Shown: positions 1,655 through 61,516 of the stretch, in pieces | Numbering within the stretch: position 1 is the first letter of the stretch | Layout of the letters: each line of letters begins with the position of its first letter | Origin: Orobanche coerulescens | Taxonomy: Eukaryota; Streptophyta; Magnoliopsida; Lamiales; Orobanchaceae | Length of the DNA stretch: 64,000 nt | Reading direction: 5' to 3' | NCBI GenBank assembly: GCA_033398695.1 | Contig: CM065801.1 | Coordinates: 106,261,170 to 106,325,169, forward strand | Made by a program: the position numbers and the translations under genes | The notes under the pieces: model-generated | The model's database searches: none | Told to the model about the DNA's origin: nothing | The model's input: only the letters and a program-made list of their open reading frames with translations

Positions 1655-4071
1655 TGTAACACCCCAAACTAGGCGGATATGACAGTGCCGTGGACCCCCG
1701 ACTGGGACCCACGAGGCGAATGAAAACTTATGAATTAAATAATATAATTGTTGTACCGAACCACATTATATTACTAAATACTCCGATGAGGAGCTTAAGT
1801 ACATTACACCAGGACAAAACAGAATACTAGTATATTTTATATGAAGATAAAATACACCACCCTGAATAAATAAACGTCTCAGACGGAATTTGCAGCGGAA
1901 ATACAAATGAAGAGAAATAAGAATGACTGAAATGACTGAATTAAGCGGAATGACTAGGGCCCCCTACTAGTATCACTGGGACTCCTCGCCGTCAACATGC
2001 TCTTCCCGTGCCTTTGCCTTGCCGTGACCTGAAAAGAAAATCCCCCAATGGGGTCAGTTACACAGAACAACAATCCTCAAGGGTTGAAAATACACAATCA
2101 TGATATAACTGAAGTTATGAAATATCCTTAATTATGAATTATGCTGAAGAGGAGTATCATAGTATGCCCGTAATGTTCTGTGCAAGTGTACAAGATGAAT
2201 GACCGGACACACCCGTCCTTGTACCTAATTAGTCTCACGGAGGTAAGCGTTACCGTGTGCACGGTCCAATGTATCGGTGAACCCAATACATGACCATCGT
2301 GTGCCCGACTAAGAATTCCACACAGCCACACCCGGCCACGCAATATGAACCTAGACGGTCATATGATCGAGAATGACCACAATGAATTTCAATGAATAAT
2401 AATTCGATAAGGTCAAGCATGACTCACCGAGATGAAAATAATAGTGACGTGATTGATAACTCAATGAAACGATTGGAACCGTCGTTCCTCGTGAATGAAG
2501 TGATTGTTCGACAATTACAAGTCTCAATAGGGTTAATACAATGATGAATGAGTATGATTATGAATGAAAAACAACAAAAGGAATGAATATCCTTTTAACC
2601 GAGTAAGAATTAACTTACGCAACACCGATGAAGAATGTCCGTCCACGAACAACGTCCTAAATGAAATGTCGGTCGCTCGAACAACCTTGAATAACACAAT
2701 TTACCAATAATTCGATCATTACACGAATCAAATAGGATCATAACCGACTCAACGTCGATACAACAATATCCAAACTCGAATATATCGAAACCAACTCCAC
2801 GATGAGTATTTCAAACCATCAAAACACTTTCAATGATATCAATAATCTCATAGGAACCCACAATTTCAAGATTACAACAAGGTCAAATGGAAATCCCCAA
2901 ATTATCCAAAGTCAACCCCAAGGGTTCTTGATATAAATCCCCAAAATAGCCATTAAATCTATAGGAATACATTTATCCAAGGTAGATAATCCATATCCAA
3001 AATATTCCAACAACAATCCAAGCTTACACAAAGAAATCGGAAGGAAAAACTCAAAAATCCGAAATTCTAGATCCAAGAGATTAATACCTTTGATTTGATG
3101 AGATGAAGATGATGAAATGATGATTAATCCAACTCAAAGCCTTGAAGATGGTGATAGATGATAACAGCTCGAAGAGAACACTCCAAGTCGCCCGAAATCG
3201 CCCGACGTCGCTCAAAAACGAAGAGAAGTGAGAAAATGACGAAACTCAGGCTAACTGTCCAATTTATACTGCTCCAGATTAGCGTGCGCTAGCCCTTGTG
3301 CGTAGCGTGCGCTAACGGGTATTTTGTGTAGACCAGTACCCACTGACCGAAAACGGTAGCGCGCGCTATGTACCATCTGTAGCGTGCGCTACGGTTGTAC
3401 ACTTAGCGTGCGTTAACCCCAAAATGTTAGCGTGCGCTAACGAATTATCTGATGCCCAGTACTGGAGTCCAGAACCTTCTGTCCTCTGATCTGATCTCGG
3501 TAGCGTGCGCTAAAACCAACAATTAGAGTGCGCTACTACACCGCTTGCGTACGCTAAAAACCACTCATAGCGTGCGCTATGAATTAATCCAATGCAGTCC
3601 AGTAGCCACTGGACTCAACATGATCCGTCCTTAGCGCGCGTTACACCAAATATTAGCGTGCGCTACTACAACCCACTAGCGCGCGCTACTTACCATTCGT
3701 AGCGTGCGCTACTTATAACTCACTGCGGTCGGTACCTTACGGATCGCGGCCCAGTAACATTAGCGTGCGCTAATGATGAGTGGTAGTGTGCGCTACCTGT
3801 ACTCAATTAGCGCGCGCTAAAAAGATTACGTAGCGTGCGCTACTCCTCACGCACAGCCCACAATGAAAATGACAATGATGATAAACACGGCACGAAACTC
3901 CAATTAGATTAGTGATGAATGACGATTGATACACGATACAATTACTCTGAACGATGAATACCATGATTGAATATGAGTGACAAATGATCATTAACGAGTG
4001 AAATTACTGAATGATATATACTGAATGATAATTACTGAATGATAATTACTGAATTACAACCAGGTATTACA
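1655..4071 (-). repeat. gypsy-E 5' LTR
   Basis: On the minus strand it starts TGTAATACC at 4071 and ends GGTGTTACA at 1655, giving about 2.4 kb. Boundaries come from the TG...CA ends, the adjacent PBS, and the similar terminal sequences of the other gypsy LTRs here. U3 holds a large palindrome array (3275-3845). A TATA-like TATAAATT lies at about 3262-3269. A donor-like AAG/GTATTAA lies near 3088. The partner LTR is off the window, so the TSD cannot be checked; the right flank is attcc. Short TGAATGATAATTAC-like repeats sit at 4005-4052. Confidence 0.85.
3275..3845. promoter_or_regulatory. U3 palindrome array, gypsy-E (about 18 sites)
   Basis: Near-palindromes of the form TAGCGTGCGCTA or TAGCGCGCGCTA are centred at about 3285, 3308 | 3362, 3385, 3409, 3433 | 3506, 3529, 3550, 3573 | 3637, 3659, 3682, 3705 | 3766, 3789, 3813, 3836. 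Spacing inside groups is 21-24 bp, mostly 23; groups are 54-73 bp apart. The promoter-proximal site is about 20 bp from the TATA-like sequence. A regulatory role is inferred from position; the array itself is directly visible. Confidence 0.75.
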
Positions 4072-6923: not shown

Positions 6924-6958
<35 letters not shown>

Positions 6959-13047: not shown

Positions 13048-15072
13048 TGTAATATCCAAAATGTTTCTATTTTTGGTAGTTTCCATTTTGGTGTATTTTC
13101 CATTGTTAGCGACTCCCTTGTAACCGTTTCAACATTTTGAGAATATTTAATTCTCTGCATTTTGGCATCCGAGCATTTTTTGAGGTTGTTGTACTTGATT
13201 TTGTGTTTAGTTATGGTATTTTCCGCTTGTTGACTCGTTTTGTGTGTTTGGGGTGCGAAACTGTCGTTCCGGGTTTTGTGTGAGTTCATTTAATGTTAGA
13301 CATGTTGTGAGTTTCGGCACGGTTGTTCGTTTATGTATCGTGGTTTTTGGTCATTTCGGGTCATTTTGTAATTTTCTAAAAGTTTAGGGAATTTACTTTC
13401 GTGGTCGTATTCCGAACCTTCGGGTCGTCGGGATTGTGTTTTCCTTCTAGTGCTTAAATTCGTCGTCTCGAACCTTTCACAAGCTTGTGTTAGTTTCGTA
13501 TATTCATCATCTCATGATTCCGTCGCACTCTCTCCTGACGAACTGCTCTAGCAGCTGTGCTGAGTGTCTTATGTACGTTAAGTCCAGGCCTTTACGTATG
13601 TTAAGACTGTTACGTACATTACGGACTTATTCCTAATGTACTTAACAACCTTCGTGTTTTTGGGCAGTGAGTTCTGCAGATTCATTACGTACGTAAGCCT
13701 TAGAGGCTTTACGTACGTTATGAATCTTACGTACGTTAACCCCTATGGATTACGTACGTAAGCCAGTCTGGGTTTAAATACCCAGGAACGGACTGAATTT
13801 GCCCATTTCTTCCTTTCTTCTCCTCCTACACGACTTCGGCGATTTTTTGGGCGACTCTCGAGCGATTTCGAGCCTTCAACTATCTAGCCATCATCTTCCT
13901 TGGAGCTGTGGAGTAGATTAACAACACAAATCAATCCTTTTTGTCTTCGATTCGAGGTAAATCACTGGAACCCTACTTTTGAGAATTTGGGGTTCTTCGA
14001 AAATATTCGATGGAATCGTAGTTATGATGGAATTGTGTTGACTATAGATTATCTACTTCCGATTCATGTTTTCCTGCGAGATTATTGTTGTATCCTTGAA
14101 ATTGTTGAGAATCGAGAGGGTTTTGGTTGCGATCCGCCCTCGTTGAATATGATGTTGGATTATTTGTGTCGTAGGCGGGGTTTTTGGGCATATTTCCATT
14201 TGGTTTGCAATTGTACTATTGTTGATAGTCATTTTACGAATCATCTAGGTTCAAGATTTCTAAATTCTTCCAACGGTGGTTGTTCACCATCTCTTTTCAG
14301 TCCGTCATGTCTCAAAGGCAAGTAACTCCTACAAATTTACTATCTTAAATGTGAAAAGTGATGTACTTGAGTGTAAGAGCATTTATGTTCACCTCGGGAG
14401 GTTCCGACCGGGCCTCGGGGGAATCCACGCATGGTTAGGTTCATGAACTTTTGGGTTAACCACTCCGGGATGGTCTATAGGGGCCTCAGAGGGATTCGCG
14501 CATGGTCGGGTCTACAGTTAATCGGGAGGAATTGTATTTTGTGATCTTTTGTAGATTTTGCATTTCCGGAAATCATTATCTGGCTTGTTTCGAAAACCAT
14601 TGATGCACGTGCTTTGATATTCTAAGATGTAAGAATTCATTTGCATTGCTTGTACTAGCTATTCCACGGCTAACCCCATTTAAGGGAAATACATTTCATG
14701 TATTTTAGGTGCGAAGAATGCGATCGAAAGAGTGCCGGGGGAGTATGAGGATGAAGGCCAGGTGTGATACTGTGATGTGGTCGTCGTGTTTGTTTGTTTT
14801 GAGACTGGTTATTGGGATTCTATTTTCTAATTGTCACAAATTGTTAGATGGTACTCGAGTACTATAGGAGAGTTTTTTTCCTATTGTCAATTACATTAAA
14901 TTGTTGTCTTATTATGGTCTAAATGTTGTCGTGAGAATTCCATCGGTTGAACCGTTAAATGATGGATGGTTTTGATATGTTCTGTTATGGATGTAGTACA
15001 AATTTAGCCTTGTGAGTTCCGCACGGGATTCACGGCGCTGTGACAAGCCCCGAATATCTTGGGGGTGTTACA
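13048..15072 (+). repeat. gypsy-A 5' LTR
   Basis: TGTAATATCC...GGTGTTACA, 2025 bp. It matches the split 3' LTR (20020-20152 plus 49138-51036) along its length. It contains a palindrome array at 13570-13760, a TATA-like sequence inside an inverted repeat at 13768-13785, and a donor-like GAG/GTAAAT at 13955-13963. At 14296-14325 a GC-AG-like donor (CAAAG/GCAAGTAA) follows a pyrimidine-rich CAG. A two-copy CTCGGGAGG...GGGCCTCGGGGGAATC repeat lies at about 14392-14520. Confidence 0.93.
13565..13790 (+). promoter_or_regulatory. gypsy-A 5' LTR palindrome array and TATA region
   Basis: Variants of TTACGTACGTAA are centred at about 13574, 13597, 13615, 13639 | 13690, 13714, 13732, 13755. The two quartets are spaced 23-18-24 and 24-18-23 and lie 51 bp apart. 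The TATA-like TTTAAATA sits in CTGGGT-TTAAAT-ACCCAG, centred 21 bp after the last palindrome. Several sites are degraded at CpG (ACGTACGT to ATGTACGT or ACGTATGT). Promoter assignment is inferred. Confidence 0.75.
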
Positions 15073-26954: not shown

Positions 26955-27352
26955 CATTACATACGTTATCCTTCATCATTAACGTACGTAATGCTCTTTA
27001 GCGTACGCTATTCATCCCGCATAGCGTACGTAATCATCATCCTAGAACTAACTGAACTGTTTTGTTAACATGCTTACATACGTAATGTTTCCTTCATAAC
27101 GTACGTAACATGTACGTTGACTTGCTACAGTACCACCCACATTACGTACGTAATGCGCCATGCATAATGTACATAATGGCCGAGGTTGACTCGCTGTCCA
27201 CATCCTCCGCCGAAAGCTGCCGACACAGGTTCCCACCTGCCAACCATGACTCAATCGTCTGATTCCCATGTTACGTACGTAATGTCTCGGCCATAACGTA
27301 CGTAACTCTTGTGATTTAGCGTACGTAAGTCTTCAACATTAGCGTACGCTAA
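26955..27352. promoter_or_regulatory. U3 palindrome array, gypsy-B left LTR
   Basis: Sites of ACGTACGT/GCGTACGC type are centred at about 26962, 26985, 27004, 27027 | 27079, 27102 | 27147, 27170 | 27276, 27299, 27322, 27345. The last quartet is spaced exactly 23-23-23, the first 23-19-23. On the minus strand the TATA-like sequence is about 21 bp past the 26962 site. Function inferred. Confidence 0.75.
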
Positions 27353-30098: not shown

Positions 30099-30110
30099 GC
30101 TCCGATACCA
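30099..30110 (-). other. gypsy-B primer-binding site
   Basis: Minus strand TGGTATCGGAGC, five bases inside the LTR end at 30116; initiator tRNA-Met type. Confidence 0.8.
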
Positions 30111-30115
30111 TATTC

Positions 30116-33100
30116 TGTAACACCCCCAGATTTAACCGGAAATATTACAGCGCTGTGGGCCCCGAGATGGAACCCACAAGGCTAAAAGAAATTTTCGCAA
30201 ACATTTACAAATGCCCAAGAGGCCAACGACGGTACTATCTTTAAAAATTCACAACGACTTATAAAATCCATTTATTGAAAACCGTCGTAAAAACTCATTT
30301 GAAATCGCAAGGCCAAACGGCCGACACTCAAAAGTGTAGAAAACGATTTCCAAAGTAATCTCAGTTACCAGATACCAAAAGAGCATTTAAAAATACTCAA
30401 GCAGCGGAAAAGACAACCAAACAACATTACTCTAGCAGCGGAAATACAACATTCAATCAGAACACTCGATAAACAATACATGTCTTAGCCAGTATCCTCC
30501 GGGAAGCTCATCTCTTTACGACCGCTACAAGCTCGATACTCCAAGAACCTAAAAAGAAATCCCACGATGGGGTCAGCCATAATATCCAACAATGATAACC
30601 GTCACATCACATTAATAATTACATACCAATGAGAATACAATATGAGAATACAACCAACGTAATCTTACCGCCACAACATTACTAACTCAAGTAATTCTCA
30701 TCAGAATAACCATTATCACATTTCACATCTCGTACTCGATTAACCAATAAACTCGAACATAATATCTGTATTGTACCTCAAACAATACTCAAGATTCTCA
30801 AACTATCATAACCAACTCACGATATGGAAAAGTACCAGTTCTGACCAATACGATCCATCGGATAGTATCATCAAATCCCAAAATGATAACCGATTGTCCA
30901 TCTTAAGACGAATACCAAAGGAAATACGGAACATACCTCGAGATATGAAGTGCCACGACAATCATATCAGTCTAATCCGAGACCAGATCAATGCAATACG
31001 GTCACGGTCCTAACACAAGACCTACAAATGCATACTCATATGACCACGTCAATATGCTCAAAACAATATCAACAATGTATATTCAATGGAAATCCCATGA
31101 CCCAACGCCCTCAGCATAAGTCCCAAGATGATCCTACAAGATCAACACGAGGTGGATAACCAACAATATACATATGCAAAACAACACAACACTGGGTAAT
31201 CCAACGATCCAGCGCCCTCAGCATAGATCCCAAGATGATCCCGTCGGACCAAAACGAGGTGGAAAAACCCGTCCAATGATCCAGCGCCCACAACATAGAT
31301 CCCAAGATGATCCTGTCGGACCAACACGAGGTGGATATCTGATCCAGCGCCCTCAGCATAGATCACACGATCCCATCGGATCAACACAACACAAACAACA
31401 CAATTATGCATACACATATGCAAATCAAAATGTTCATCAACATGAACAACGCAACATGAACGACAATATGACAAATCAACTAAGACGACCTCATGTTCAA
31501 CAACATGAATGACAAAATGCATGATCAAAAATCATTAACACTAAACCGAATCAATTTAGGATACTTTTCCCGAGTCCTTCGGGAGAAATCTCGATCAAAT
31601 CATCACCGACGATTATCGGCAATGCTCGGCGATCCAAACGTACCATGGAGTGCAGATACTCATATCCTCGTCTTTATCATAATGTATCCTCGATGCCCAA
31701 AATGCCAATAATCGAAATAAATCATATACCTTATGATTTAACCCCCAGAATCGGAAGAACAATATACAATCCAAATACCCCGAGTTCACAATTATAATCA
31801 TCGATATATGCATTATAAACGAAATGAAACCGAAACCATTCATTAAATATTATAACTGAGCAAGTAATAACTTGCCTCGATACCGATACGATGATGATGA
31901 AGCCGCTACTAGTGACAATGCCTTCGTCTACGAGCTCCCCGGCCCCGACCGAAGCAATTCACGAACATACTCGAACATGACCGCAACATACGGTTATACT
32001 CACCGATCAATAATCTCAACCTATCGAAGTAATAAAATAACACATAACCGATAACGATTAACAACCGACACGACCAACCAAATCATCTCAACGATTCAAC
32101 GATATCTACAATACAAATTACAACTCGATGATCATAATCAATCAATACAACTTATCAATAAACCCAACGGTTCCACAACTATCCCGATTTACCACAAGTA
32201 CGAATAATCCAATTCAAACAATTACGAATTCACAACCACAATGCGATTACGGATACGAGCGTAAAGGAAATCATATTCGATGAACAATCACAATCTTTCC
32301 GGATTCCAAATTGATATCATGATTCGTATTTCATTAAGAACATACGAGTTCTACCACTACAACCAACGAATATTCGATCTTCAAATCTAAAAATACCGAT
32401 AATTCAATATACGATCGTCTTGCTATGTTAAATTCATCAAAAGTTCCTCAAGAACACTAAGGGATTCAAACTCATGTTCATAGCCATTAAAACGACATAA
32501 TTCGATATTCTTTAACTTGAATATAATCATCCAATTCGTAATCCAAGTCATGAATCATCGTATTCTTCAATATACACTTCACATAACCTCAAGGATTGTA
32601 ACAACAACACCCTAATCATCATCATACGGATCAAATACGGATCACAATACCAGGAACATCAAGAACTCTATGATTTCATAATCATAATGAACATATTCAA
32701 GACATAAACCAACCTATCATCATCTTCCCTCAACATATGATTCATAAATCCTCAAGAATCATAACAACAGTACCATAATCACTTTCATACGAATCATTTA
32801 TCAATAACAACATCAAAAATCCGAAATGAAAGGGAGGATTATCTAACATACCTCTTTGAAGATGGAAAACACAAGAAATCACTTCAAGAATCATCATTAA
32901 TCTCCATATTCAAGCTTCTAATCCATGCTTCCAAGCTCATAACCAAGATAGAAGATGTTTATTCTCACTTATATGCTCAAATGGACGAAGGTAGGAGGAG
33001 GAAATCCATTTTTCTTTGTGAAGAAATAAAAGAACGAACTTCATTTTATAACTGCATAACTCATTACGTATGTTATCCTTCATCATTAACGTACGTAATT

Positions 33101-33765
33101 CTCTTTAGCGTACGTTATTCGTCCCGCATAGCGTACGTAATCATCATCCCAGAACTAACTTAACTGTTTTGTTAACATCCTTACGTACGTAATGTTTCCT
33201 TCATAACGTACGTAACATGTATGTTGACTTGCTACAGTACCACCCACATTACGTACATAATACGCCATGCATAACGTACGTAATGGCTGAGGTTGACTCG
33301 CTGTCCACATCCTCCGCCGAAAGCTGCCGACACAGGGTCCCACCTGCCGACCATGACTCAATCGTCTGATTCCCATGTTACGTACGTAATGTCTCGGCCA
33401 TAACGTACGTAACTCTTGTGATTTAGCATACGTAAGTCTTCAACATTAGCGTACGCTAAGTATTCTATACTTAGCCAATTTTAACTGTTACCATATGTCT
33501 CGACATACAGAATACGAACATATGGCATACAGAATATGTATACTGAATCCAATAATATTCTCATATGATATACCCAATATCAAAAGTGCGATAACCTGAT
33601 ACACGATATCCTCAATTATAATTGTCTACCAAATATGACAATTATACCAATACTGACATCTCAGTCCTTCATTTATTTTATCCATACTGTACAGATTCCA
33701 CGCTGTACATTATAACTCGGATAAAATAATCTCAAACAACAGTAGTAGAAAATCCGGATATTACA
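30116..33765 (-). repeat. gypsy-B 5' LTR (right copy)
   Basis: 3650 bp, begins TGTAATATCC on the minus strand at 33765. It is a close match to the left copy, with scattered substitutions and small indels, including a duplicated GAGAATACAATAT near 30640. Its palindrome array is at 33060-33462, and the tandem repeat recurs at 31099-31390. Confidence 0.92.
33060..33462. promoter_or_regulatory. U3 palindrome array, gypsy-B right LTR
   Basis: Same layout as the left LTR (sites from about 33068 to 33452), with several independent CpG-to-TpG/CpA changes, for example GCATACGT and ACGTACAT. Function inferred. Confidence 0.7.
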
Positions 33766-35516: not shown

Positions 35517-38378
35517 TGTAACACCCCAAAAGGCGGCTATTACAGTGCCGTGAATCCCACACTGGGACCCACCAGGCGATATTCAAAACAGATTTAAAAC
35601 AAATATTATTTGTGATACCGAACCACAGTGAATAGTCATTACTCCGATTAGGAGTTTATTAAAATATGGCCAACGGCCTTATAATACACAGGATCCGAAA
35701 AACAAGTATAAACCATATGGAGATGGAAAATACTTCAAATGTCAAATACAACCAGATAGCAATTTAAATGAAACAGGAAATAACATGACACGGTTTAACA
35801 TAACCGGACAACAAAAGGTGTGGGCCCCCCGAACTAGTATCCTCGAACCCTTCGCCGTCGACATGCTCTTCCCGTGCCTTGCCTTTGCCTCGACCTAAAA
35901 TACAATACAAGTATTTCGCCCAACACAGGGTCAGATATACATGATAATCAATTCTTCCGACATTATACAATTCATATATATATAGATCTCAAAGAAATCA
36001 TTCCGACTATCAATCATACCCCTCGGGCGTATGAAACAATCAGTCACAAGCATCCAATACTATGGATGATTAACAATATGGCTCAAGATGGACATCACAG
36101 TACGCCCGATCCGGAAATGTGTCCGTGTATATGTCCGCCCCGTATACGGAATCCAGAATATACGTGGGACAATGTACCTAATTAGCCTCACGAAACTACG
36201 TCTCGTGTGCACAGTCCAATGCGAAATAATATCCACGCATGACTATATGTGTGCCTAGCTAAAAATCCTACACAATGACCAATCGGAACGCAGATATGAT
36301 TCCGGATATGTCACGATACAACATGACAACGAATTCAATAAATCACATATCTGATTAAGGATCAAGAAAACTCACCGAAGTGAAAATAAGACCAACGAGA
36401 TCAACGATTCAAAACGACGTACTTGGGAATGCAACCCCATGAAGAAATCGGAATAACGTCAAGGACAATGTCAAATCACGACAAACATTTCATGAACAAT
36501 TCATACATATGAAAGATATAACCATCACAAGAATCTAATTATCATTATAACCAAGCAAGATAACTTGCCTCAATACGGAGACGAGAATAGTCCTCTTCTT
36601 GTCGGAATGAACGAACGGTCCTCGACTAATATTGTTTACTCGAACAATCAACCTTAAACGAAATACATTTTACTCAATAAAATATTCATATAATTATCAA
36701 TATAGGATTAGTAAGACGTCATCCTACGATCCTTTAGAATAGTTTGTTATTTCCAATTATCGAAGCCTTATGTCAGGAGTTCTTTTAACATCATTACAAC
36801 CATAAAAATCGGTTTACAATACTTTTTCCGAATGTTCACATGGTTCATCATAAACAAGAATTCTATCAAGGGTATGTTGAATAACCAATTATGATGTTAA
36901 GATCATCTTATGATGATTAAACTTTCCAAAACATTAAAATGTTGAAGGAACAAAATCTGCACATTAATGATCATTCTCCTCTCATCTAAATTGAATATTA
37001 AGTTTACAACAAGTTCATTAGTTCTGAGATTACACCATATCCATGAGGATTATCAAAATCTTTGTTTACAAGGCTAGAAGATTAACTATCATCATGATGA
37101 ATTCACCATGTATCTAGTATGAAGATCAAAACAAACTAAGTTCTCAACACATTAGATGAATGAAAAGTTGTTTCACAATTATCCTTAACCATTCAAAATC
37201 TTGCTGAGCTAAACATAAGGAGGATATATTTCTTAAGAAATCTGAGCAAGAGGACATCCTTCTACTTCTAATCATGGCCAAGTTCTTCCTAAGGTAATTG
37301 AAAACTTAAAATGGTGTTTAATTACTTTATGATAACAACTCTATTAGTTAAATCCAAATATGGTGAAGTTAACCGATTCAAAGGCATTTTACTGAGCTAA
37401 ATTCGTCCAAAGATGAGCATGGTAGTTACAACATGGTTAAAATCACTATATCATCAAGAACACATCCATCTCAAACCCTTATTTATCATATTCATCAAAA
37501 GTGTTAAAAAGGTTGGATTAAAACTATGTTTTACTTGATTAATCTAACTCTAGGTGAAGTATAATTCGTCATTAACATCAACATAAGAAAATAATGCAGA
37601 GATGAAGGTACACCTACCTCCAGAAATGAAGAACAACTTCAATGCTATGAGGAAATATACTCCAAGCTCAAGAACACCTCTTAATCTCCAAGGAAATGAG
37701 CTCCACTCCAAGATTTAAGGCTTAGAAGCAAGTTGGTGAAGGTTGATATCGTTTTGGGAATGCAGAGGGACGATAAATGGATAGAGGATCGGTTTGGAGT
37801 TGTGAAGAAATGAAAAACAGGTTGGTCCTATAAATAGACTGTATATACTTAGCGCACGCTATCGGAACAGTTTAGCGTACGCTAATGCACTTACGTACGC
37901 TAACCGGTCGATATTACCTACGTAAGCGGCTTACAGAGGCTACTGTCTTGAATTTCGCAGGTCGTTAGCGCACGCTAATGAGAAATGGGTTACGCACGCT
38001 AATAAAAGTTGATTCTAGCCGACATGACAGCTCAGATCTTGCTCACATGCATGCTAACGGCTAAGGAGTTCACGTGCTGAAGTAAACTGATGCCAGATTC
38101 CCTCCTAGCGTACGCTACAGAGGAATCCTTACGCACGCTAAGGCACAGGATTAGCGTACGTTAATCGTACTATGTAGCGTACACTACATCAACAGAAAAA
38201 TTCGAAAATGCAACTCTCTAATTAACATCGAATCATCACATATGAAATGAAATAACAACGATATGAAATTCAATCTATAATACCTCAACATAATACTAAA
38301 TGCAACGATTTATGATAACCAGATTGTCCGAATAATACAACGACAGGTAAAAATGAAAAGTTACAGTCGGATATTACA
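35517..38378 (-). repeat. gypsy-D 3' LTR
   Basis: 2862 bp, TG...CA bounded (plus strand TGTAACACC...GATATTACA). Nearly identical to 43518-46381. Palindrome array at 37849-38190. Confidence 0.95.
37849..38190. promoter_or_regulatory. U3 palindrome array, gypsy-D 3' LTR
   Basis: TAGCGCACGCTA/TTAGCGTACGCTAA/TTACGTACGCTAA sites in the same order as in the 5' LTR (45850-46190). Next to TATAAATA and GTATATAC at about 37829-37848. Confidence 0.75.
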
Positions 38379-43517: not shown

Positions 43518-46381
43518 TGTAACACCCCAAAAGGCGGCTATTACAGTGCCGTGAATCCCACACTGGGAGCCACCAGGCGATATTCAAAACAGATTTAAAA
43601 CAAATATTATTTGTGATACCGAACCACAATGAATAGTCATTACTCCGATTAGGAGTTTATTAAAATATGGCCAACGGCCTTATAATACACAGGATCCGGA
43701 AAACAAGTATAAACCATATGGAGATGGAAAATACTTCAAATGTCAAATACAACCAGATAGCAATTTAAATGAAACAGGAAATAACATAACACGGTTTAAC
43801 ATAACCGGACAACAAAAGGTGTGGGGGCCCCGAACTAGTATCCTTCGAACCCTTCGCCGTCGACATGCTCTTTCCGTGCCTTGCCTTTGCCTCGACCTAA
43901 AATACAATACAAGTATTTTGCCCAACACAGGGTCAGATATACATGATAATCAATTCTTCCGACATTATACAATTCACATATATATAGATCTCAAAGAAAT
44001 CATTCCGACTATCAATCATACCCCTCGGGCGTATGAAACAATCAGTCACAAGCATCCAATACTATGGACGATTAACAATATGGCTCAAGATGGACATCAC
44101 AGTACGCCCGATCCGGAAATGTGTCCGTGTACATGTCCGCCCCGTATACGGAATCCAGAATATACATGGGACAATGTACCTAATTAGCCTCACGAAACTA
44201 CGTCTCGTGTGCATAGTCCAATGCGGAATAATATCCACGCATGACTATATGTGTGCCTGGCTAAAAATCCTACACAATGACCAATTGGAACGCATATATG
44301 ATTCCGGATATGTCACGATACAACATGACAACGAATTCAATAAATCACATATCCGATTAAGGATCAAGAAAACTCACCGAAGTGAAAATAAGACCAACGA
44401 GATCAACGATTCAAAACGACGTACTTGGGAATGCAACCCCATGAAGAAATCGGAATAACGTCAAGGACAATGTCAAATCACGACAAACATTTCATGAACA
44501 ATTCATAAATATAAAAGATATAACCATCACAAGAATCTAATTATCATTATAACCAAGCAAGATAACTTGCCTCAATACGGAGACGAGAATAGTCCTCTTC
44601 TTGTCGGAATGAACGAATGGTCCTCGACTAATATTGTTTACTCGAACAATCAACCTTAAACGAAATACATTTTACTCAATAACATATTCGTATAATTATC
44701 AATATAGGATTAGTAAGACGTCATCCTACGATCCTTTAGAATAGTTTGTTATTTCCAATTATCGAAGCCTTATGTCAGGAGTTCTTTTAACATCATTACA
44801 ACCATAAAAATCAGTTTACAATACTTTTTCTGAATGTTCACATGGTTCATCATAAACAAGAATTCTATCAAGGGTATGTTGAATAACCAATTATGATGTT
44901 AAGATCATCTTATGATGATTAAACTTTCCAAAACATTAAAATGTTGAAGGAACAAAATCTGCACATTAATGATCATTCTCCTCTCATCTAAATTGAATAT
45001 TAAGTTTACAACAAGTTCATTAGTTCTGAGATTACACCATATCCATGAGGATTATCAAAATCTTTGTTTACAAGGCTAGAAGATTAACTATCATCATGAT
45101 GAATTCACCATGTATCTAGTATGAAGATCAAAACAAACTAAGTTCTCAACACATTAGATGAATGAAAAGTTGTTTCACAATTATCCTTAACCATTCAAAA
45201 TCTTGCTGAGCTAAACATAAGGAGGATATATTTCTTAAGAAATCTGAGCAAGAGGACATCCTTCTACTTCTAATCATGGCCAAGTTCTTCCCAAGGTAAT
45301 TGAAAACTTAAAATGGTGTTTAATTACTTTATGATAACAACTCTATTAGTTAAATACAAATATGGTGAAGTTAACCGATTCAAAGGCATTTTACTGAGCT
45401 AAATTCGTCCAAAGATGAGCATGGTAGTTACAACATGGTTAAAATCACTATATCATCAAGAACACATCCATCTCAAACCCTTATTTATCATATTCATCAA
45501 AAGTGTTAAAAAGGTTGGATTAAAACTATGTTTTACTTGATTAATCTAACTCTAGGTGAAGTATAATTTGTCATTAACATCAACATAAGAAAATAATGCA
45601 TAGATGAAGGTACACCTACCTCCAGAAATGAAGAACAACTTCAATGCTATGAGGAAATATACTCCAAGCTCAAGAACACCTCCTAATCTCCAAGGAAATG
45701 AGCTCCACTCCAAGATTTAAGGCTTAGAAGCAAGTTGGTGAAGGTTGATATCGTTTTGGGAATGCAGAGGGACGATAAATGGAGAGAGGATCGGTTTGGA
45801 GTTGTGAAGAAATGAAAAACAGGCTGGTCCTATAAATAGACTGTATATACTTAGCGCACGCTATCGGAACAGTTTAGCGTACGCTAATGCACTTACATAT
45901 GCTAACCGGTCAATATTACGTACGTAAGCGGCTTACAGAGGCTACTGTCTTGAATTTCGCAGGTCGTTAGCGCACGCTAATGAGAAATGGGTTACGCACG
46001 CTAATAAAAGTTGATTCTAGCCGACATGACAGCTCAGACCTTGCTCACATGCATGCTAACGGCTAAGGAGTTCACGTGCTGAAGTCAACGGATGCCAGAT
46101 TCCCTCTTAGCGTACGCTACAGAGGAATCCTTATGCACGCTAAGGCACAGGATTAGCGTACGTTAATCGTACTATGTAGCGTACGCTACATCAACAGAAA
46201 AATTCGAAAATGCAACTCTCTAATTAACATCGAATCATCACATATGAAATGAAATAACAACGATATGAAATTCAAATCTATAATACCTCAACATAATAAT
46301 AAATGCAACGATTTATGATAACCAGATTATCCGAATAATACAACGACAGGTAAAAATGAAAAGTTACAGTCGGATATTACA
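43518..46381 (-). repeat. gypsy-D 5' LTR
   Basis: 2864 bp, nearly identical to the 3' LTR. Contains the palindrome array, TATA-like TATTTATA/GTATATAC at about 45831-45850 and a donor-like GAG/GTAGGT at about 45617-45622. Confidence 0.95.
45850..46190. promoter_or_regulatory. U3 palindrome array, gypsy-D 5' LTR
   Basis: Centres at about 45857, 45880, 45898, 45921 (23-18-23) | 45973, 45997 | 46113, 46136, 46159, 46182 (23-23-23). The cores mix GCGCACGC, GCGTACGC and ACGTACGT. Function inferred. Confidence 0.75.
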
Positions 46382-49137: not shown

Positions 49138-51036
49138 GTTTCGAGGTTGTTTTACTTGATTTTGCGTTTAGTCATGGTATTTTCCGTTTGTTGACTCGTT
49201 TTGTGTGTTTGGGGTGCGAAACTATCATTTCGGGTTTTGTGTGAGTTCGTTTAATGTTTTTAGACATGTTGTGAGTTTTGGAACAGTTGTTCATTTGTGT
49301 ATCGTGGTTTTTAGTTATTTCGGGTCATTTTGTAATTTCCTAAAACCTAGGGAATTTACTTTCGTGGTCGTATTTCGAACCTTCGGGTAGTGGGGATCGT
49401 GTTTTTCTTCTAGCACTTAAATTCATTGTCTCGAACCTTTCGCAAGCTTGTGTTAGTTTCGAATATTCATCATCTCATGATTCCGTCGCACTCTCTCTTG
49501 ACTAACTGCTCTTAGCAGCTGTGCTGAGTGTCTTACGTACGTTAAGTCCAGGACTTTACGTACGTTAAGACTGTTACGTGCGTTAAGGACTTATTCCTAA
49601 CGTACGTAACAACCTTCGTATTTTTGGGCAGTGAGTTATGCAGATTCATTATGTACGTAAGCCTTAGAGGCTTTACGTATGTTATGAAGCTTACGTACGT
49701 TAACTCCTATGGATTACGTACGTAAGCCAGCCTGGGTTTAAATACCCAGGAACGTACCGAATTCGCCCATTTATTCCTTTCTTCTCCTCCTGCGCGACTT
49801 GGGCGATTTTTGGGTGACTCTCGTGCGATTTCGAGCCTTTAACTATCAAGCTATCATCTTCCTTGGAGTTGTGGAGTATATTAACAACACAAATCAATCT
49901 TTTTTGTCTTCGATTCGAGGTAAATCAATGGAACCCTACTTTTGGAAATTTGGGGGTTCTTCGTAAATTCTCCGATTTAATCGTAGTTATGATGGAATTG
50001 TGTTGAGTATAGATTATCTACTTACGATCATGTTTTCCTATGAGATTATTGTTGTATTCTTGAAATTGTTGAGAATCGAGAGGGTTTTGGTTGCGATCCA
50101 CCCTCATTGAATATGATGTTGGATTATTTGTGTCGTAGGTGGGTTTCGGGCGTATTTCCATTTGATTTACAATCGTACTATTGTTGATAGTCGTTTTATG
50201 AATCGTCTAGGTTCGAGATTTCCAAATTCTTCCAACGGTGGTCGTTTACCGTCTCTTTTCAGTTCGTCATGTCTCAAAGGCAAGTAACTCTTACGAATTT
50301 ACTATCTTAAATGTGCAAAGTGATGTACTTGAGTGTTAGAACATTTATGTTCAACCCGGGAGGGTCCAACGGGGTCTCGAGGGAATCTAAGCATGGTTGG
50401 GTTCACGAACATTTTGGTTAACCACTCCGAGAGGGTCTATCGGGGCCTCGGAGGGATTTGCGCATGGTCGGGTCCACGGTTAATCGGGAGGGATTGTATT
50501 TTGTGATGTTTTGTAGATTTTTCATTTCTGGAAATCATTATCTGGGTTGTTTCGAAAACCATTGATGCATGTGCTTTGTTGTAAGATGTAAGAATTCATT
50601 TGCGTTACTTGTACTAGCTATTCCACGGCTAAACCCATTTGGGGGAAATACGTTTCATGTATTTCAGGTGCGAAGAATGCGATCAGAAGAGTGCCGGGGC
50701 AGTACGAGGATGAAGGCCAGGCGTGATACTGTGATGTGGTCGTCGTGTTTATTTGTTTTGAGATTGGTTATTGGGATTCTATTTTCTAATTGTCACAAAT
50801 TGTTAGATGGTACTCGAGTACTATAGGAGAGTTGTTTTTTTTTCCTGTTGTCAATTACATTAAATTGTTGTCTTATTATGGTCTAAATGTTGTCGTGAGA
50901 ATTCCATCGGTTGAACCGTTGAATGATGGATGGTTTTGATCTGTTCTGTTATAGATGTAGTACAAATTTAGCCTTGTGAGTTCTGGATGGGATTCACGGT
51001 GCTGTGATATGCCCCGAATATCTTGGGGGTGTTACA
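49138..51036 (+). repeat. gypsy-A 3' LTR, second segment
   Basis: Continuation of 20020-20152, homologous to 13181-15072, ending GGGTGTTACA and followed by TSD gaact. Palindrome array at 49525-49760. Confidence 0.92.
49525..49760 (+). promoter_or_regulatory. gypsy-A 3' LTR palindrome array and TATA region
   Basis: Centres at about 49538, 49561, 49579, 49603 | 49654, 49678, 49696, 49719: spacing 23-18-24, then 51, then 24-18-23, identical to the 5' LTR. Several sites decayed in the 5' LTR are intact here (and the reverse). TATA-like sequence within CCTGGGT-TTAAAT-ACCCAGG at about 49731-49750. Confidence 0.75.
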
Positions 51037-55339: not shown

Positions 55340-56515
55340 AGGTGAATCAACAACGCAGACAGACCGCCTCAGCGTCGATCAATTCGTGGTGCAATTCAGA
55401 CCTGCACACACTCGATCTTGAACCTGAAAGGATCCGAACATGAAAGACCACAATGACTCGATCTAAAAATGAAGAGGACCCACAGTTAGCGCACACTAGG
55501 CGTGAGCTAACACATGCTATTTGTGTTGAGTAGCGCGAGCTAGCGTCGCCTGTAGCGCACGCTAATTACTCGGGTTTGGCAGTGACAGTATGTTGGTTTC
55601 TGCTCTCTGGACTAGCAGTTAGCGCATGCTAGGCATGAGCTAACACACGCTATCGATGTTGAGTAGCGCGCGTTAGTATCGCCTGTAGCGTACGCTAATG
55701 AGTTGGGCAGTAAGTTCGGAATTTCTGCATGGTATCAGTTAGCGCACGCAACGCTATTGGTAGCACACGCTATCGACGTAGGTCAGAGGCTACTGGACTA
55801 CCAGGTGACCCCATTTGCGCGCGCTATGCTTAGGAGTTAGCGCACGCTAATTAAACCCTGTATATAAGTTGGGTCAGACATGTTTTGCGTCATTTCTCTT
55901 CTCATTTCTTACTCTTCCGATGAGAGCATGCGAGAGAGGCGATCTGAGGTGATTTGGGACAAATTTTCATCATCCATCATCACGTTTAGTTGTATAACAA
56001 GAATTTTACAACATCTAATCCGTTCCTTCTCTCCAAATCAAGGTAAATTCCTTAGAACCCTAGTTTGGGAAATTTTTGGGATTTTTTTTTAGATCCGTCC
56101 GATTTATACATTTTGAAGCTTGAATTCTTGAGATTATGATGTATCTACCCCATACCCACGTTTCCCTTACGATTATACGAATGCCTTTGTATATAACTTG
56201 AATTGGAGAGAGTTTGGATGATTTCCAACCTCTATGTGAATATTTTAAAGACTTATGAATCATAAAGGGAGGGGGGGTTTCGGGAGTCTTCTTGAGATTT
56301 GAGTATTGATGATTGATTATCATTTTTCCTCACGAATTGTTTATGCCTGGAAGTGCATTCTTGGACCTCACGAGCTTGCATACCATTTTCTCTTCGGTTC
56401 TAATGTCTCAAAGGCAAGTATATGTTTATGATTGTATGTTCTCGACTTTGAAACTGAGGTATATTAATTGTGTGATTGTATATATTCACTTCGGGAGGTT
56501 CCGACTGTAATATCC
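55340..56515 (+). repeat. gypsy-F LTR fragment
   Basis: Recognised by a palindrome array (55485-55850), TATATAAG (55861-55868), donor-like CAAG/GTAAAT at 56039-56048, GC-type donor CAAAG/GCAAGT at about 56409-56418, and TTCGGGAGGTTCCGAC at the right end; these match the order in gypsy-A and gypsy-C LTRs. The left boundary is uncertain. It is interrupted at 56515 by gypsy-C and presumably resumes beyond the window. Confidence 0.7.
55485..55850 (+). promoter_or_regulatory. U3 palindrome array, gypsy-F
   Basis: Sites of TAGCGCACGCTA/TAGCGCGCGTTA type centred at about 55492, 55513, 55536, 55558 | 55625, 55646, 55669, 55691 | 55745, 55766 | 55820, 55843. Both quartets are spaced 21-23-22 and repeat with a 133-bp period. 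The last site is about 20 bp before TATATAAG. Confidence 0.72.
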
Positions 56516-57361
56516 GCATTTTTTCCCTTCTCTTGTTATTCTCTTTTTAGTACATCTTCATTTTTGGCGACTCGCTTGTAACCGTATCGACATTTTGAGG
56601 ATATTTAATATTGAACTTTTTGTCGTTCGAGCTTGATTCGGACTCATTTTACTCGATTTGATGTTTCATGTTGTTATTTTGAATGTTATCGTAATCGTCA
56701 TTTGGAACCGCCATTTCGGGGTTGCCAAAGATCCATCTCGTGTTATTATGGGCGTTGTGAGCTTTTGTTTGGTGTTTCGACCATGTGTCGTACATTCCGG
56801 ATGTTTGGGCCGTTTTGTAAATTTTCCCAAACTTTTGGGAAAATTTCGTTTGTTGATTGTTTTTCCGAACCTTTGAATAGTCGGGAATATATTTTTCCTT
56901 CGGCATTTAAGTTCGTCGTTTCAGGTCCCTAACATCCGTACCATCGTGAATTGTTCACTGTTGTATTTCGATTCTTTTTCGGTACCCCCCTCTTTCATTC
57001 CTGGCCTGTACTCCACAGAAAGGAATGTTACGTACGTAACACCGTTTTGGTTACGTACGTAACGTCATAGTGTAATTCAGTTCAGGCAATTCTACCTTTT
57101 TGGTTACGTACGTAACACCCTTCTCGGTTACGTACGTAACGCCCTAGTGGATATCAGTTCAGGCGATTTTGCCTTTTTGGTTACGTACGTAAGGCCCTTA
57201 TGGCTTACGTCGTGTCTGGCTTACGCGTTAGCATGTGGTGGCTAACGTACGTAACGAGGCCTGGGTTTATAAACCCAGGGGTTGACCGATTTCGGCCATT
57301 TCCACTCCTTCTCCTCCCCATCCGGCTCCTAGGCGATCTTCTTGGCATTTCCGGCGATTTG
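56516..57361 (+). repeat. gypsy-C 5' LTR, first segment
   Basis: Starts TGTAATATCCG. U3 with palindrome array and TATA palindrome, ending at the copia insertion with TSD atttg (57357-57361 and 61512-61516). Confidence 0.9.
57025..57280 (+). promoter_or_regulatory. gypsy-C palindrome array with palindromic TATA box
   Basis: Perfect or near GTTACGTACGTAAC sites at about 57033, 57056 | 57109, 57133 | 57186, 57210 (degenerate), 57226 (degenerate), 57248. Pairs repeat every 76-77 bp. The TATA box lies in the perfect 20-bp palindrome CCTGGGTTTATAAACCCAGG (57260-57279), centred 21 bp after the last site. Confidence 0.78.
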
Positions 57362-58404
57362 TGTTGGAACATTTTGTTCCATACATAAATTAAAAGTGTT
57401 TTGATGATTAATGTTGATAAGCAAAACAAAACAACGAAGAGACGAAGCAAGCATCGAAGCAAAACGAAGTGCAAAAAGCTGGAAAAACACAAAGCTAACG
57501 TACGTAATATGTGATCATTAACGTACGTAATGGAAGCAGCTTAACGTACGTAATGGATGAGAGATAACGTACGTAAAGGAGTTCAAACAAGTGAACGTTG
57601 GAGGAGTCAAAGTCAGCAAAGCATACAACGGATATATGACGTCAGCAGTGACGTAATGTTAACGTACGTAACGATGTCATTACTAACGTACGTAACCAAA
57701 GAAACGAAAACTCACTGGACTGAAACTGGACTAGGCTAACGTACGTAACCTGGGGAGGTTAACGTACGTAATGAAGCTTACGTACGTAATATGAATGTGA
57801 TAGCGTACGTAATGCAGTGTGCAGCAGCTAACGGCTAGTTTGAAGATGGAGCCTATAAATACCATCCCTATGGTATTGTTTAAAAACAACAACCTTGAGC
57901 AAATTGTCTATTCTTGTGATATTATTACACACATTCTTGTTGTTGATATTGAGCTTAATTGTAAGTGTTTGAGTGAGAATTCACGAAAACATACACGAGT
58001 GGTAAAAGAAAAGATACGATTGGATTCGGTGTTATTAGGATCAAGGATCCGGCATTATTAGAATCGCAATCGATATCTAAGTGAGGTTTATCTAGTACCC
58101 ATAGAAAGCTAGAGCGGTTGATTCCTTGTCCGATAGAAAAGGAAAACGGTTTAACTTGGACCGACGCAAAGACAAGTACGAGTGGTTTATCACGGACCAA
58201 TAGAAGACATGATTGTAACGGTTATACCTCGACCGATAGAAGAGAGGCGTAGAGGTTTTTATCTTGATCCTATAGAAAAAGATACCGAGAGAGGGCGTAG
58301 GCTCGATTATAGCCGAACCTCTATATATCCTCGTGTCCTTTATTTTCCGCACCTTTTATTTACGCTTCCGCAAACGGCGCAAATATCCGAATCGGTACCC
58401 AACA
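57362..58404 (+). repeat. SIRE-like copia 5' LTR
   Basis: TGTTGGAACATTTTG...GGTACCCAACA, 1043 bp. TATA-like CCTATAAATACC at about 57852-57863. Confidence 0.95.
57495..57815 (+). promoter_or_regulatory. U3 palindrome array in a copia LTR
   Basis: TAACGTACGTAA sites at about 57501, 57524, 57547, 57570 (23-23-23) | 57665, 57689 | 57742, 57765, 57783, 57806 (23-18-23). The same motif and spacing occur in the gypsy LTRs although this is a Ty1/copia element. The TATA-like sequence follows about 48 bp later. The 3' LTR repeats the array at about 60600-60922. Confidence 0.78.
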
Positions 58405-58418: not shown

Positions 58419-58461
58419 AGCACTCCAATACGCGGCTTAACATCCGAGGAGAAGATCCAAA

Positions 58462-59996
58462 ATGGCTTTTCAAATGGCTCCCGTCGAAGGCCTTGCTCTC
58501 AACCGACCACCATTCTTTGATGGCTCAAATTATTTGACGTGGAAGAAGAAGATGTCGATATTCATCCGAGCATACGACATCGAAATTTGGAAGATTTATT
58601 GCCTTGGCCCGAAAGTTCCAATCAAATCCGACGGTACGCTCAAATCTTTCGAAGAATACGACGATGCCGATTGGAAAAATGACCATCTAAATTGTAAGGC
58701 TACTCAACTCTTATTTTGTGCCTTAAATCCGGAAGAGGTCAATCGAATCTCATCGTGTGAGAGTGCGAAAGAAATATGGAAAATTCTAGAAATCACACAC
58801 GAAGGGACGACTCAAGTCAAGGAGACGAAGATAAATATGCTTCTCCATGACTACGAGTTATTCATGATGAAGGGTGACGAGTCCATCACCAATATGCTCG
58901 ACCGATTCTCGGTCATCACCAATGGACTAGCTTCGTTTGGCAAACCATTATCTAGTAGTGAAAAAGTTAAGAAAATTTTACGATCACTACCTAGCGAATG
59001 GGACGGAACCGTGACCGCGATTATGGAATCTAAAGACCTCAACACGCTCGATTTTAGTGCCCTTGTTGGTTCACTAATCAATTATGAGATTGTTTTAAAA
59101 TCACGAAGTGTCAAGCCGAAGCCGAAGGAACGATCGTTAGCCATGAAGGCTAAGATGTCGAGGAAGAAAGAAGAAATTCCGGTGGAGGAAAGCGACGAAG
59201 AATCGGCATATTATGCCAAAAACATTAATAAGTTTCAAACCTTATTAAACCGGAGGAAGAAGGATATCTCGGGCGAATCTAAGAAATTCGACAACTCTTG
59301 TCGATTATGTGGAAAACCAGGCCACTTCGCTAAGCATTGTCGTGTCAAACCCAAGAAGGAGGTTCTCGTGGCTACTTGGAGCGATGAAGATGAAGACGAT
59401 GATTTCATCAATCAAAATAATCTCGCTCTCATGGCCCGGAGTTCGTTCGACGACAGCGACGTCGAAAGCCAGGTAAGTACATCCTCCCGTGATGAACTTT
59501 TTGATGCATTTGAATTATTGCATACGGATTTTCAAAATGCATTATCGGAAATCAAATCCCTTAAGTCTAAAATTAAATCTTTGGAAATTGAAAATTCCAA
59601 AATTATCAAGAAGGAAAATTTGTTGAAATCGATCATTCAAAGTGTATTGAAAATGAAAATATTTTGAAGGATGATCTCGCCAAAATTCAAACCGAGCTTA
59701 AATCTTTGACAAAGAAATTCTCGTGCGGAAACGAGAAATTTGAACAAATGCTTGGTGTTCAAAAATTTACTTTGAATAAAGAGGGGTTAGGATTCAAACC
59801 ACGTTCGAAAAACGAATCCGTTAATTTTAAAATACCCCATTGCGAAAAGTGTTTGAAAATCGGGCATCATATTTCAAGTTGCAAACGCCCGGCGATAAAA
59901 ATTAAGAAAATTTGGGTTCCTAAAGGAACAATCGTTTCAAATATCGTCTACGTTTCTAAACAAAAACCAACTATAGGTTGGATCCCCAAAAATTGA
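58462..59996 (+). CDS. SIRE-like gag (one -1 frameshift near 59640)
   Basis: Structural protein that packages element RNA. The ATG at 58462 starts MAFQMAPVEGLALNRPPFFD. The UBN2 gag domain spans roughly residues 15-210 (GSNYLTWKKKMSIFIRAYD; INMLLHDYELFMMKGDESIT; LRSLPSEWDGTVTAIMESKD). A zinc knuckle CRLCGKPGHFAKHC lies at residues 280-293. An acidic stretch and a predicted coiled coil (LKSKIKSLEIENSKIIKKEN) follow. The first frame stops at 59667. The next segment is in the -1 frame (ENENILKDDLAKIQTELKSL) to 59996 and holds a second knuckle CEKCLKIGHHISSC and a C terminus PTIGWIPKN. A 1-bp deletion explains the shift; programmed frameshifting is a less likely alternative. Confidence 0.9.
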
Positions 59997-60454
59997 TTTT
60001 TGTATTTTACTCAGGGGGAGTATTTTTTTTAAGGGGAAATAATATTTTCAGGGGGAGTTTTTACCCTTTATGCATTTTTTTTTATCATAAATTGATATCG
60101 TGCATATTCTACATTTTGGTATCACATATTTCAATTGCTATTTTGATGAAAACAAAAAGGGGGAGAGAAAGGAGGAAAATAAGAAAAATGGGATTTACCC
60201 TAAAAGGGGGAGAAACGAAGGAGTTGAAAAATGAAAAGGAGAAGTCGAGAAAATGACAGAAAAAGAAAAATGCGGAGACGTCGAAAAGACGATGAAAATT
60301 TAAAAATGGGGAAAAGAAAAGAAGGAGTCGAGAAAGAAATGGGAGAAGATTCTAACAAAACGGACAAAGTCGAAAACTTTGGTCTGTAAAGATATACATA
60401 TATTTGTATTTTTGCAGGAAAATCCCATTGTCGGAGTGTTGTTTTGTAATCATC
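59997..60454 (+). other. Non-coding 3' part of the gag-only copia
   Basis: About 460 bp, purine-rich, with repeated GGGGGAG tracts (60011, 60049, 60158, 60205) and no pol homology. Deletion of pol between gag and the PPT would produce this layout. Confidence 0.65.
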
Positions 60455-60467
60455 AAAAAGGGGGAGA
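60455..60467 (+). other. SIRE-like copia polypurine tract
   Basis: AAAAAGGGGGAGA ending one base before the 3' LTR TG at 60469. Confidence 0.88.
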
Positions 60468-60468: not shown

Positions 60469-61511
60469 TGTTGGAACATTTTGTTCCATACATAAATTAA
60501 AAGTGTTTTGATGATTAATGTTGATAAGCAAAACAAAACAACGAAGAGACGAAGCAAGCATCGAAGGAAAACGAAGTGCAAAAAGCTGGAAAAACACAAA
60601 GCTAACGTACGTAATATGTGATCATTAACGTACGTAATGGAAGCAGCTTAACGTACGTAATGGATGAGAGATAACGTACGTAAAGGAGTTCAAACAAGTG
60701 AACGTTGGAGGAGTCAAAGTCAGCAAAGCATACAACGGATATATGACGTCAGCAGTGACGTAATGTTAACGTACGTAACGATGTCATTACTAACGTACGT
60801 AACCAAAGAAACGAAAACTCACTGGACTGAAACTGGACTAGGCTAACGTACGTAACCTGGGGAGGTTAACGTACGTAATGAAGCTTACGTACGTAATATG
60901 AATGTGATAGCGTACGTAATGCAGTGTGCAGCAGCTAACGGCTAGTTTGAAGATGGAGCCTATAAATACCATCCCTATGGTATTGTTTAAAAACAACAAC
61001 CTTGAGCAAATTGTCTATTCTTGTGATATTATTACACACATTCTTGTTGTTGATATTGAGCTTAATTGTAAGTGTTTGAGTGAGAATTCACGAAAACATA
61101 CACGAGTGGTAAAAGAAAAGATACGATTGGATTCGGTGTTATTAGGATCAAGGATCCGGCATTATTAGAATCGCAATCGATATCAAAGTGAGGTTTATCT
61201 AGTACCCATAGAAAGCTAGAGCGGTTGATTCCTTGTCCGATAGAAAAGGAAAACGGTTTAACTTGGACCGACGCAAAGACAAGTACGAGTGGTTTATCAC
61301 GGACCAATAGAAGACGTGATTGTAACGGTTATACCTCGACCGATAGAAGAGAGGCGTAGAGGTTTTTATCTTGATCCTATAGAAAAAGATACCGAGAGAG
61401 GACGTAGGCTCGATTATATCCGAACCTCTATATATCCTCGTGTCCTTTATTTTCCGCACCTTTTATTTACGCTTCCGCAAACGGCGCAAATATCCGAATC
61501 GGTACCCAACA
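60469..61511 (+). repeat. SIRE-like copia 3' LTR
   Basis: 1043 bp, near-identical to the 5' LTR, ending at 61511 with TSD atttg next. The palindrome array is at about 60600-60922. Confidence 0.95.
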
Positions 61512-61516
61512 ATTTG

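Follow-up and report, generated by a model that had tools for sequence, protein, structure and literature searches.

The analyzed window, a stretch of 64,000 nucleotides of the Orobanche coerulescens genome (assembly GCA_033398695.1, contig CM065801.1, positions 106,261,170 to 106,325,169), harbors long terminal repeat (LTR) retrotransposons of both the copia and the gypsy superfamily, several of which carry a similar layout of paired 12-bp palindromes upstream of a TATA-like box. The element under study, copia-2, is located on the forward strand and is bounded by a 5' LTR (57362..58404, with the ends TGTTGG...CCAACA) and a 3' LTR (60469..61511), both delimited by self-match and by the target-site duplication (TSD) ATTTG, 5 bp in length, which flanks the element on both sides. 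The two LTRs share 99.5% identity across the 1046 bp matched (5' LTR versus 60469-61514), and the element was found to be inserted inside an LTR of the element gypsy-E. Its copia gag frame (58441..59667, +) was assigned to Retrotran_gag_2 (Pfam, E 2.6e-32). Five AGGGGGAG polypurine octamers (60013..60466, +) start at positions 60013, 60050, 60158, 60205, and 60459, the last one beginning 10 bp ahead of the 3' LTR, at which the AT/TG attachment site reads GGGGGAG-AT-TGTTGG. Since the inter-LTR distance is only 2.06 kb, a full pol cannot fit in copia-2. With its octamers, AT/TG junction, and copia gag, the element agrees with the description of Sireviruses by Bousios et al. (2010; PMC2829016), as it also does with regard to many palindromic boxes upstream of TATA (ten sites, TATA at 57854).

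The array in the 5' LTR of copia-2 comprises ten 12-bp dyads with the consensus W-RCGY-RCGY-W, that is, two CpGs per site, with start-to-start gaps of 23-23-23-95-24-53-23-18-23 bp, followed by the TATA box (57854..57859, +, read by eye) 53 bp past the start of the last site. It is made up of a first quartet representing two pairs spaced 23-23-23 (57496..57576, +; starts at 57496, 57519, 57542, and 57565), a middle pair spaced 24 bp (57660..57695, +; starts at 57660 and 57684), and a TATA-proximal quartet of the form pair-18-pair (57737..57812, +; starts at 57737, 57760, 57778, and 57801). All ten sites are repeated in the 3' LTR (60603..60919, +). The first-pass annotation of this DNA had described quartets of TAACGTACGTAA spaced 23-23-23 and 23-18-23; both quartets are present in both LTRs, whereas TTACGTACGTAA and TAGCGTACGTAA stand in place of TAACGTACGTAA at the final two sites, and the middle pair had been missed. 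Within the 53-bp gap, a second motif, ACTGGACT, occurs twice (57714..57732, +). The array begins 134 bp inside the LTR, the published range for Sireviruses being 200-400 bp, and no CGG-N0-4-CCG core was found in the copia-2 LTR, the core of its sites being RCGY-RCGY.

Corresponding arrays were detected in further elements of the window. Gypsy-A carries the gaps 23-18-24-51-24-18-23 in its 5' LTR (13569..13761, +) and identical gaps in its 3' LTR (49533..49725, +). Gypsy-D, located on the reverse strand (3' LTR array 37850..38186, -; 5' LTR array 45852..46188, -), reads 23-23-23-116-24-52-23-18-23 in its own sense, a gap vector lying within 1 bp of that of copia-2 at 8 of 9 positions. The LTR of gypsy-E that hosts copia-2 (57028..57254, +) shows gaps of 23-53-24-53-62, with seemingly decayed sites within the last interval. 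The gypsy identity of these three elements was deduced from Pfam domains (RVP_2, Integrase_H2C2, and SH3_Tf2-1 for A and D; Retrotrans_gag above the cut-off in the assigned frame for E), and the scanned frames yielded no chromodomain match at the E 1e-3 level. Element B carries the gaps 23-23-23-106-23-45-23-52-23-19-23 in its own sense (26957..27351, -, strand inferred from a TATAAAA past the array) and a second LTR array at 33064..33458 (-). Between its LTRs, no match to 20 reference gag/pol fragments was obtained, and it was placed with gypsy solely on the ground of its LTR ends TGTAACACCCC...GGATATTACA, which are similar to gypsy-D. Element B (24023-33765), which is nested in the element copia-A with the TSD GTGCA, has LTRs of 3.65 kb around only 2.5 kb and is probably non-autonomous. 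The 23-18-23 signature previously proposed for gypsy-A, gypsy-D, and nearly B was thus borne out with minor corrections, the actual spacings being 23-18-23 in D, 23-18-24 and 24-18-23 in A, and 23-19-23 in B. In copia-2 as well as in A, B, D, and E, inspection by eye showed a TATA-like box downstream of the array. Two further arrays, featuring sites of the G-type (such as TAGCGCACGCTA, as distinguished from A-type sites), belong to unclassified elements of unassigned strand, one with 18 sites (3280..3842) and one with about 10 sites and an internal duplication (55487..55849).

To evaluate the abundance of the palindromes, exact matches of two 12-mers, TAGCGCACGCTA and TAACGTACGTAA, were counted in the assembly of this one genome (3.646 Gb). 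In total, 1,017,744 matches were obtained for the G-type word TAGCGCACGCTA (reversed control: 56) and 242,758, on both strands, for TAACGTACGTAA (reversed control: 14,628). Among 20 regions of 10 kb taken at preset, non-random places on 16 contigs (200 kb), 12 contained at least one site at ≤1 mismatch (165 sites in total), and 10 carried arrays (at least four sites within 400 bp). In the window, TACGTA occurred 78 times versus 14.2 ± 3.9 in 100 shuffles.

The spacing of the sites deviated strongly from expectation, both LTRs of an element, as well as related elements, being taken as separate entries in all gap counts. Within the clusters of the window, 42 out of 82 gaps measured 23 or 24 bp, compared to a null mean of 3.6 and a maximum of 13 (2000 redistributions of the sites inside clusters), and gaps of 25-40 bp were absent (null 22.4). 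For the 20 regions outside the window, the corresponding values were 68 out of 132 gaps (null 5.8, maximum 14) and 2 gaps of 25-40 bp (null 35.9). These counts far exceed the null and dispose of the objection that the spacing might not be enriched. For window and regions pooled, core distances were found at 23 (79), 24 (33), 21 (4), 22 (4), and 18 bp (6), with one case in 25-34 bp, followed by groups at 41-48 and 51-54 bp.

Beyond the distances themselves, the sites were organized in pairs. Runs, defined as consecutive sites 21-24 bp apart, were counted in 33 arrays and compared with gap orders shuffled 5000 times within arrays. At ≤2 mismatches, run lengths of 2 (69 cases), 4 (34), 6 (1), 3 (1), and 1 (14) were obtained, corresponding to 104 even runs and a single odd one (3, 5, or 7), the null means being 47.6 and 27.7 and the odd minimum 14. 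At ≤1 mismatch, 89 even and 4 odd runs were counted (null means 45.8 and 23.9). For exact sites the result was weaker, its signal sitting in the 47 even runs (null 29.7, maximum 45), with 6 odd runs (null 14.2, minimum 4). The excess of even runs indicates that the layout is built of pairs of sites, its unit being the 23-bp pair.

The pairs are, in turn, arranged in a recurrent order next to TATA. The succession (pair)-about 52-pair-18-pair was found in copia-2, gypsy-A, element B, gypsy-D, and, among the fetched loci (designated by L numbers), in L001, L010, L018, L020, L024, L026, and L027, when up to three mismatches per site were allowed, some end sites being weak. The partner in the leading pair is missing in L020 and in one L010 copy, and gypsy-A was matched in both senses. 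According to the sequence past the last site, as compared by eye, the carriers represent about five groups, with L001, L010, L018, L020, and L026 lacking a superfamily assignment. For 34 non-duplicate inter-pair gaps of at least 30 bp, the best period was 10.7-10.8 bp (R 0.54), a value reached by 0 out of 2000 uniform random sets, and the closeness of the period to one turn of DNA is no more than suggestive; neither 23 nor 18 bp corresponds to a whole number of turns.

Variants of the second motif, on ACTGGACT or CAGTAGC, were identified within the gap of about 53 bp in both superfamilies. The motif was picked after viewing these gaps, so that its enrichment is descriptive only. Matches to CAGTAGCYWCTGGACTG (≤3 mismatches) numbered 15 in the window and the 20 regions, of which 7 fell into 50-55-bp gaps, 6 into array gaps of other lengths, and 2 elsewhere, the array gaps covering 6.0 kb versus 258 kb outside. 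ACTGGACT itself was found 10 times in gaps (4 of these from the copia-2 LTR pair) and once elsewhere. At least one exact ACTGGACT was present in 18 of 26 copia stretches from the unique 3' region (U3) of the LTR. The copia copy L050 carries CAGTAGCTACTGGACTG, whereas in copia-2 ACTGGACT stands twice in direct orientation and the 17-mer is absent. On the gypsy side, CAGTAGCCACTGGACCT was found in the 3' LTR of L025, after an integrase frame, with a weaker version in the corresponding L027 LTR, and gypsy-D carries the variant CAGTAGCCTCTG.

For the analysis of conservation, relatives of copia-2 were collected by means of gag (102 scored out of 71,903 candidates, the scored ones being 92-100% identical), and the upstream stretches of 26 of these loci were compared together with copia-2, a sample consisting of close relatives by choice. 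At least five sites were present in 26 out of these 27 loci, the exception, L029, having no LTR at that place. The idea that a gypsy fragment had been inserted into one copia LTR, considered in the first-pass annotation as a condition under which its observation would fall, is ruled out by this prevalence, by the presence of the array in both LTRs of copia-2, and by the TSD ATTTG. In 17 complete ten-site A-type arrays, mean pairwise identity amounted to 98.4% for the sites, despite two CpGs in every site, to 59.7% for the short spacers, to 91.2% and 83.2% for the long gaps, and to 91.1% for the upstream flank; nine copies were left out of this set, either because ten sites were not called or because of G-type sites. 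The 450 bp before gag showed 92-95.5% identity among six copies. Spacer length in copia is therefore maintained, while the letters are not. The spacer alleles are mosaic, all four gametes being present in 11 out of 21 slot pairs, which indicates that U3 recombination is common in copia. The U3 stretches of L030-L054 display hypervariable mosaic spacers between near-identical sites, as if the palindromes were recombination joints.

In gypsy-D, the layout was retained, with local indels or site loss, in all 20 fetched copies, picked among 86 scored integrase matches. For the 16 of 21 copies with ten called sites (the copy of the window included), identity was 97.3% for sites, 85.0% for short spacers, and 92.3% for long spacers. 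Hypervariable spacers were consequently rejected as a general trait, being strong in copia and mild in gypsy-D. Together with the arrays of the gypsy-A, -D, and -E LTRs and of the 3' LTRs belonging to gypsy elements at L025 and L027, these 20 copies place the array outside the Sireviruses as well. The module proposed to be common to copia and gypsy is real and genome-wide, with the 23-18-23 quartet being only part of a larger layout.

Site type was found to vary within families. Two loci, each fetched twice (L047/L055 and L050/L056), have a gag 98% identical to that of copia-2; all 9 called sites were of the G-type in the former, and 11 out of 12 in the latter, the twelfth being mixed. Their LTRs are 76-77% identical to copia-2 before the array; past it, the value is 79% for L055, and L056 matches at 73% from inside the array onward. 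Thus, a copia subfamily has changed nearly all of its sites inside an otherwise homologous LTR. Mixed sites were observed in L024, a 77% copia relative. Among the gypsy elements, A and E carry A-type sites, D is mixed and mostly G-type, and the L025 LTR has only G-type sites among the 5 called. Both types are therefore found in both superfamilies.

Two rival explanations concern the nature of the array itself. Functionless tandem duplication of a unit of at least 23 bp would account for the two long spacers of gypsy-E being identical at 33 of 41 positions and for the match of 55616-55779 to 55483-55659 at 75%, and duplication did contribute to these two arrays. As an explanation of the whole it was rejected and is considered extremely improbable, because the short spacers of copia-2 seem unrelated by eye, the sites are conserved over the spacers, the runs are even, and sites of two types show identical spacing. 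Alternatively, the dyads may be targets of silencing or chromatin factors, or RNA hairpins feeding small RNAs, which the elements could not lose without loss of promoter function. The RNA of the copia array folds better than shuffled sequences (z -2.7, 0 out of 100 as good), and an excess of small RNAs at maize Sirevirus palindromes is reported in the part of PMC10760457 covered, citing Bousios 2016. However, pairing at 23 bp is unnecessary for RNA pairing, and a pure silencing target would be expected to be lost, yet the sites are the best-kept part of U3 that was measured, making such host recognition improbable.

Judged from sequence, it seems probable that the array is an upstream enhancer of the LTR promoter with a rigid layout, read by host dimers and reached mainly by convergence. 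Each 12-bp dyad would be bound by one dimer of a DNA-binding protein of the host, and two dimers on sites 23-24 bp apart would form the working unit. Such units would be placed at preferred distances (18, 23, about 52, 64, 75, 95, 106, and 116 bp), with a second factor on half-sites of the ACTGGACT/CAGTAGC type filling the gap of about 52 bp, and the assembly just upstream of the TATA box would drive LTR transcription. Unrelated LTR elements would then have been selected to show this layout to one host complex, so that copia and gypsy would converge. A similar logic, and likeness of logic only, may be seen in enhanceosome-type promoters and EBNA1 site arrays, in which dimer sites are rigidly spaced on one DNA segment. 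With respect to the putative factor, TACGTA is the bZIP A-box and GTAC the SPL core. TAGCGCACGCTA contains neither ACGT nor GTAC, and bZIP and SPL cores, as known from general background, were rejected as the common factor for this reason. The half-sites TTACGT or GCGT/ACGC presumably resemble those of NAC or VOZ, which we take as leads only; literature searches on the NAC link gave nothing useful.

The first-pass annotation had left open whether convergence or capture brought the array into both superfamilies and had suggested examining the flanking U3 for homology. The U3 of copia-2, with sites masked, was compared with A, B, D, E, and four unclassified arrays (200 single-letter shuffles each). 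P values of 0.10-0.90 were obtained against A, B, D, arr3k, arr55k, L018, and L010, none of which was significant after correction; the positive control, the copia relative L024, reached a score of 30, above the highest null score of 23, and gave the lowest P obtainable (0.005). L024 had been considered as a gypsy element with copia-like spacers, hence as a case of capture, and was rejected as such, its array lying in a copia LTR inserted into a gypsy integrase region. The result speaks against a longer segment of U3 having been transferred recently. To a movement of the array by itself the test is blind, as the rapid turnover of copia spacers would erase the trace. Capture, in which template switching or gene conversion at identical 12-mers carried the array from one superfamily to the other, with later divergence of the spacers and an unchanged enhancer function, would fit the nearly equal gap vectors of copia-2 and gypsy-D, the second motif common to the copia L050 and the L025 gypsy LTR, and the four-gamete evidence for U3 recombination. 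Nevertheless, one capture would be insufficient in view of both site types occurring in both superfamilies, and the masked comparisons fell short of the positive control; capture is therefore regarded as unlikely, its array-only form included. An enhancer array reached mainly by convergence on a host complex appears the likelier course and is favored over capture, owing to the lack of corrected-significant U3 similarity, the sharing of both site types, and the switch of type in the copia subfamily. More tentatively, and with rather less than even confidence, it is proposed that copia and gypsy independently converged on a host-set code of obligatory 23-bp pairs, preferred distances, and the ACTGGACT partner, and that individual lineages of copia and of gypsy underwent a block switch from A- to G-type, as in an arms race with few variants of the host factor.

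Several observations weigh against a converged enhancer. The array does not occur in every family: as already stated in the first-pass annotation, the copia-A LTRs are without it, showing a single isolated 2-mismatch site at 47972. The distance from the last site to TATA is 53 bp in copia-2 versus about 23-27 bp in A, B, and E, as read by eye. An ordered TATA-proximal module common to the superfamilies is simpler under exchange than under convergence, and the masked U3 of copia-2 gave its lowest P, 0.025, against gypsy-E, a value lost on correction. The long spacers of gypsy-E point to array growth by duplication. The 33 arrays behind the pair rule include LTR pairs and related families and are not independent, and the recurrent 51-54-bp gap, representing 14 of the 34 inter-pair gaps, carries much of the helical-period signal. 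Finally, specificity is lower for shorter or other parts of the second motif (gaps versus outside: CAGTAGC 9 versus 15, CTCACTG 9 versus 7, and CTGGACTG 6 versus 5).

Some further features were recorded. On the downstream side of the main array, at a distance of about 700-900 bp, L018 (4072-4153) and L026 (6722-6803) each carry a second quartet, spaced 23-24-23. L010 contains two A-type arrays (2136-2706 and 7363-7905) 5.2 kb apart, and the stretch between them did not match any of the reference gag/pol fragments; the two arrays probably mark the LTRs of a non-autonomous element. The stretch 4378-7574 of the window shows complex internal repeats and long overlapping frames on both strands.

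Palindromic arrays as such are known already from Sirevirus copia LTRs. In the parts of PMC2829016 covered, palindromic repeated motifs (RM) upstream of TATA are described for 13 Sireviruses, termed Sirevirus-specific, and given the core CGG-CCG except in one element, Tnd-1. They resemble the arrays of this study in being palindromic boxes in at least eight copies, mostly of high identity, which form CpG islands upstream of TATA in copia LTRs. In contrast to the RM, which are called absent from classic retrotransposons, the sites analyzed here have the core RCGY-RCGY and occur also in gypsy. Those parts mention neither the pair rule nor the 23/18/52 spacing nor the second motif. The first-pass annotation, which knew of no description of a cross-superfamily module, was right with regard to the module, for which none was found in the open-access literature searched, but not with regard to palindromic arrays in copia Sireviruses, published in 2010. 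According to the parts of PMC10760457 covered, the maize Sirevirus palindrome CACCGGAC-N3-GTCCGGTG is the commonest structured motif in Copia and Helitron; it is likewise one palindrome across two superfamilies of transposable elements, but these are Copia and Helitron, no spacing rule is given there, and the motif is read via RNA structure and small RNAs. A count of spaced ACGT elements in Arabidopsis is given in PMC3354754, where, in the parts covered, ACGTACGT is reported as frequent and ACGT-ACGT spacing is proposed to matter, while the word stem 'transpos' is absent from that text. A search of the open-access literature, mostly at title level and with subscription papers largely outside its scope, brought up neither an array shared by copia and gypsy nor the pair rule, the set of spacings, or the partner motif ACTGGACT, all of which are thus apparently new.

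If the proposed enhancer function is true, the more than one million copies of one G-type site would be among the most abundant regulatory words in this genome. Unrelated retrotransposons would use one promoter lock and key, so that control over much of the transposon load could rest with one host factor. Cooperative binding can be tested directly thanks to the strict syntax, and a motif present in a million copies offers a handle on the host protein. The block switch of site type in the copia relatives would, in that case, be a visible record of the coevolution of host and transposon.
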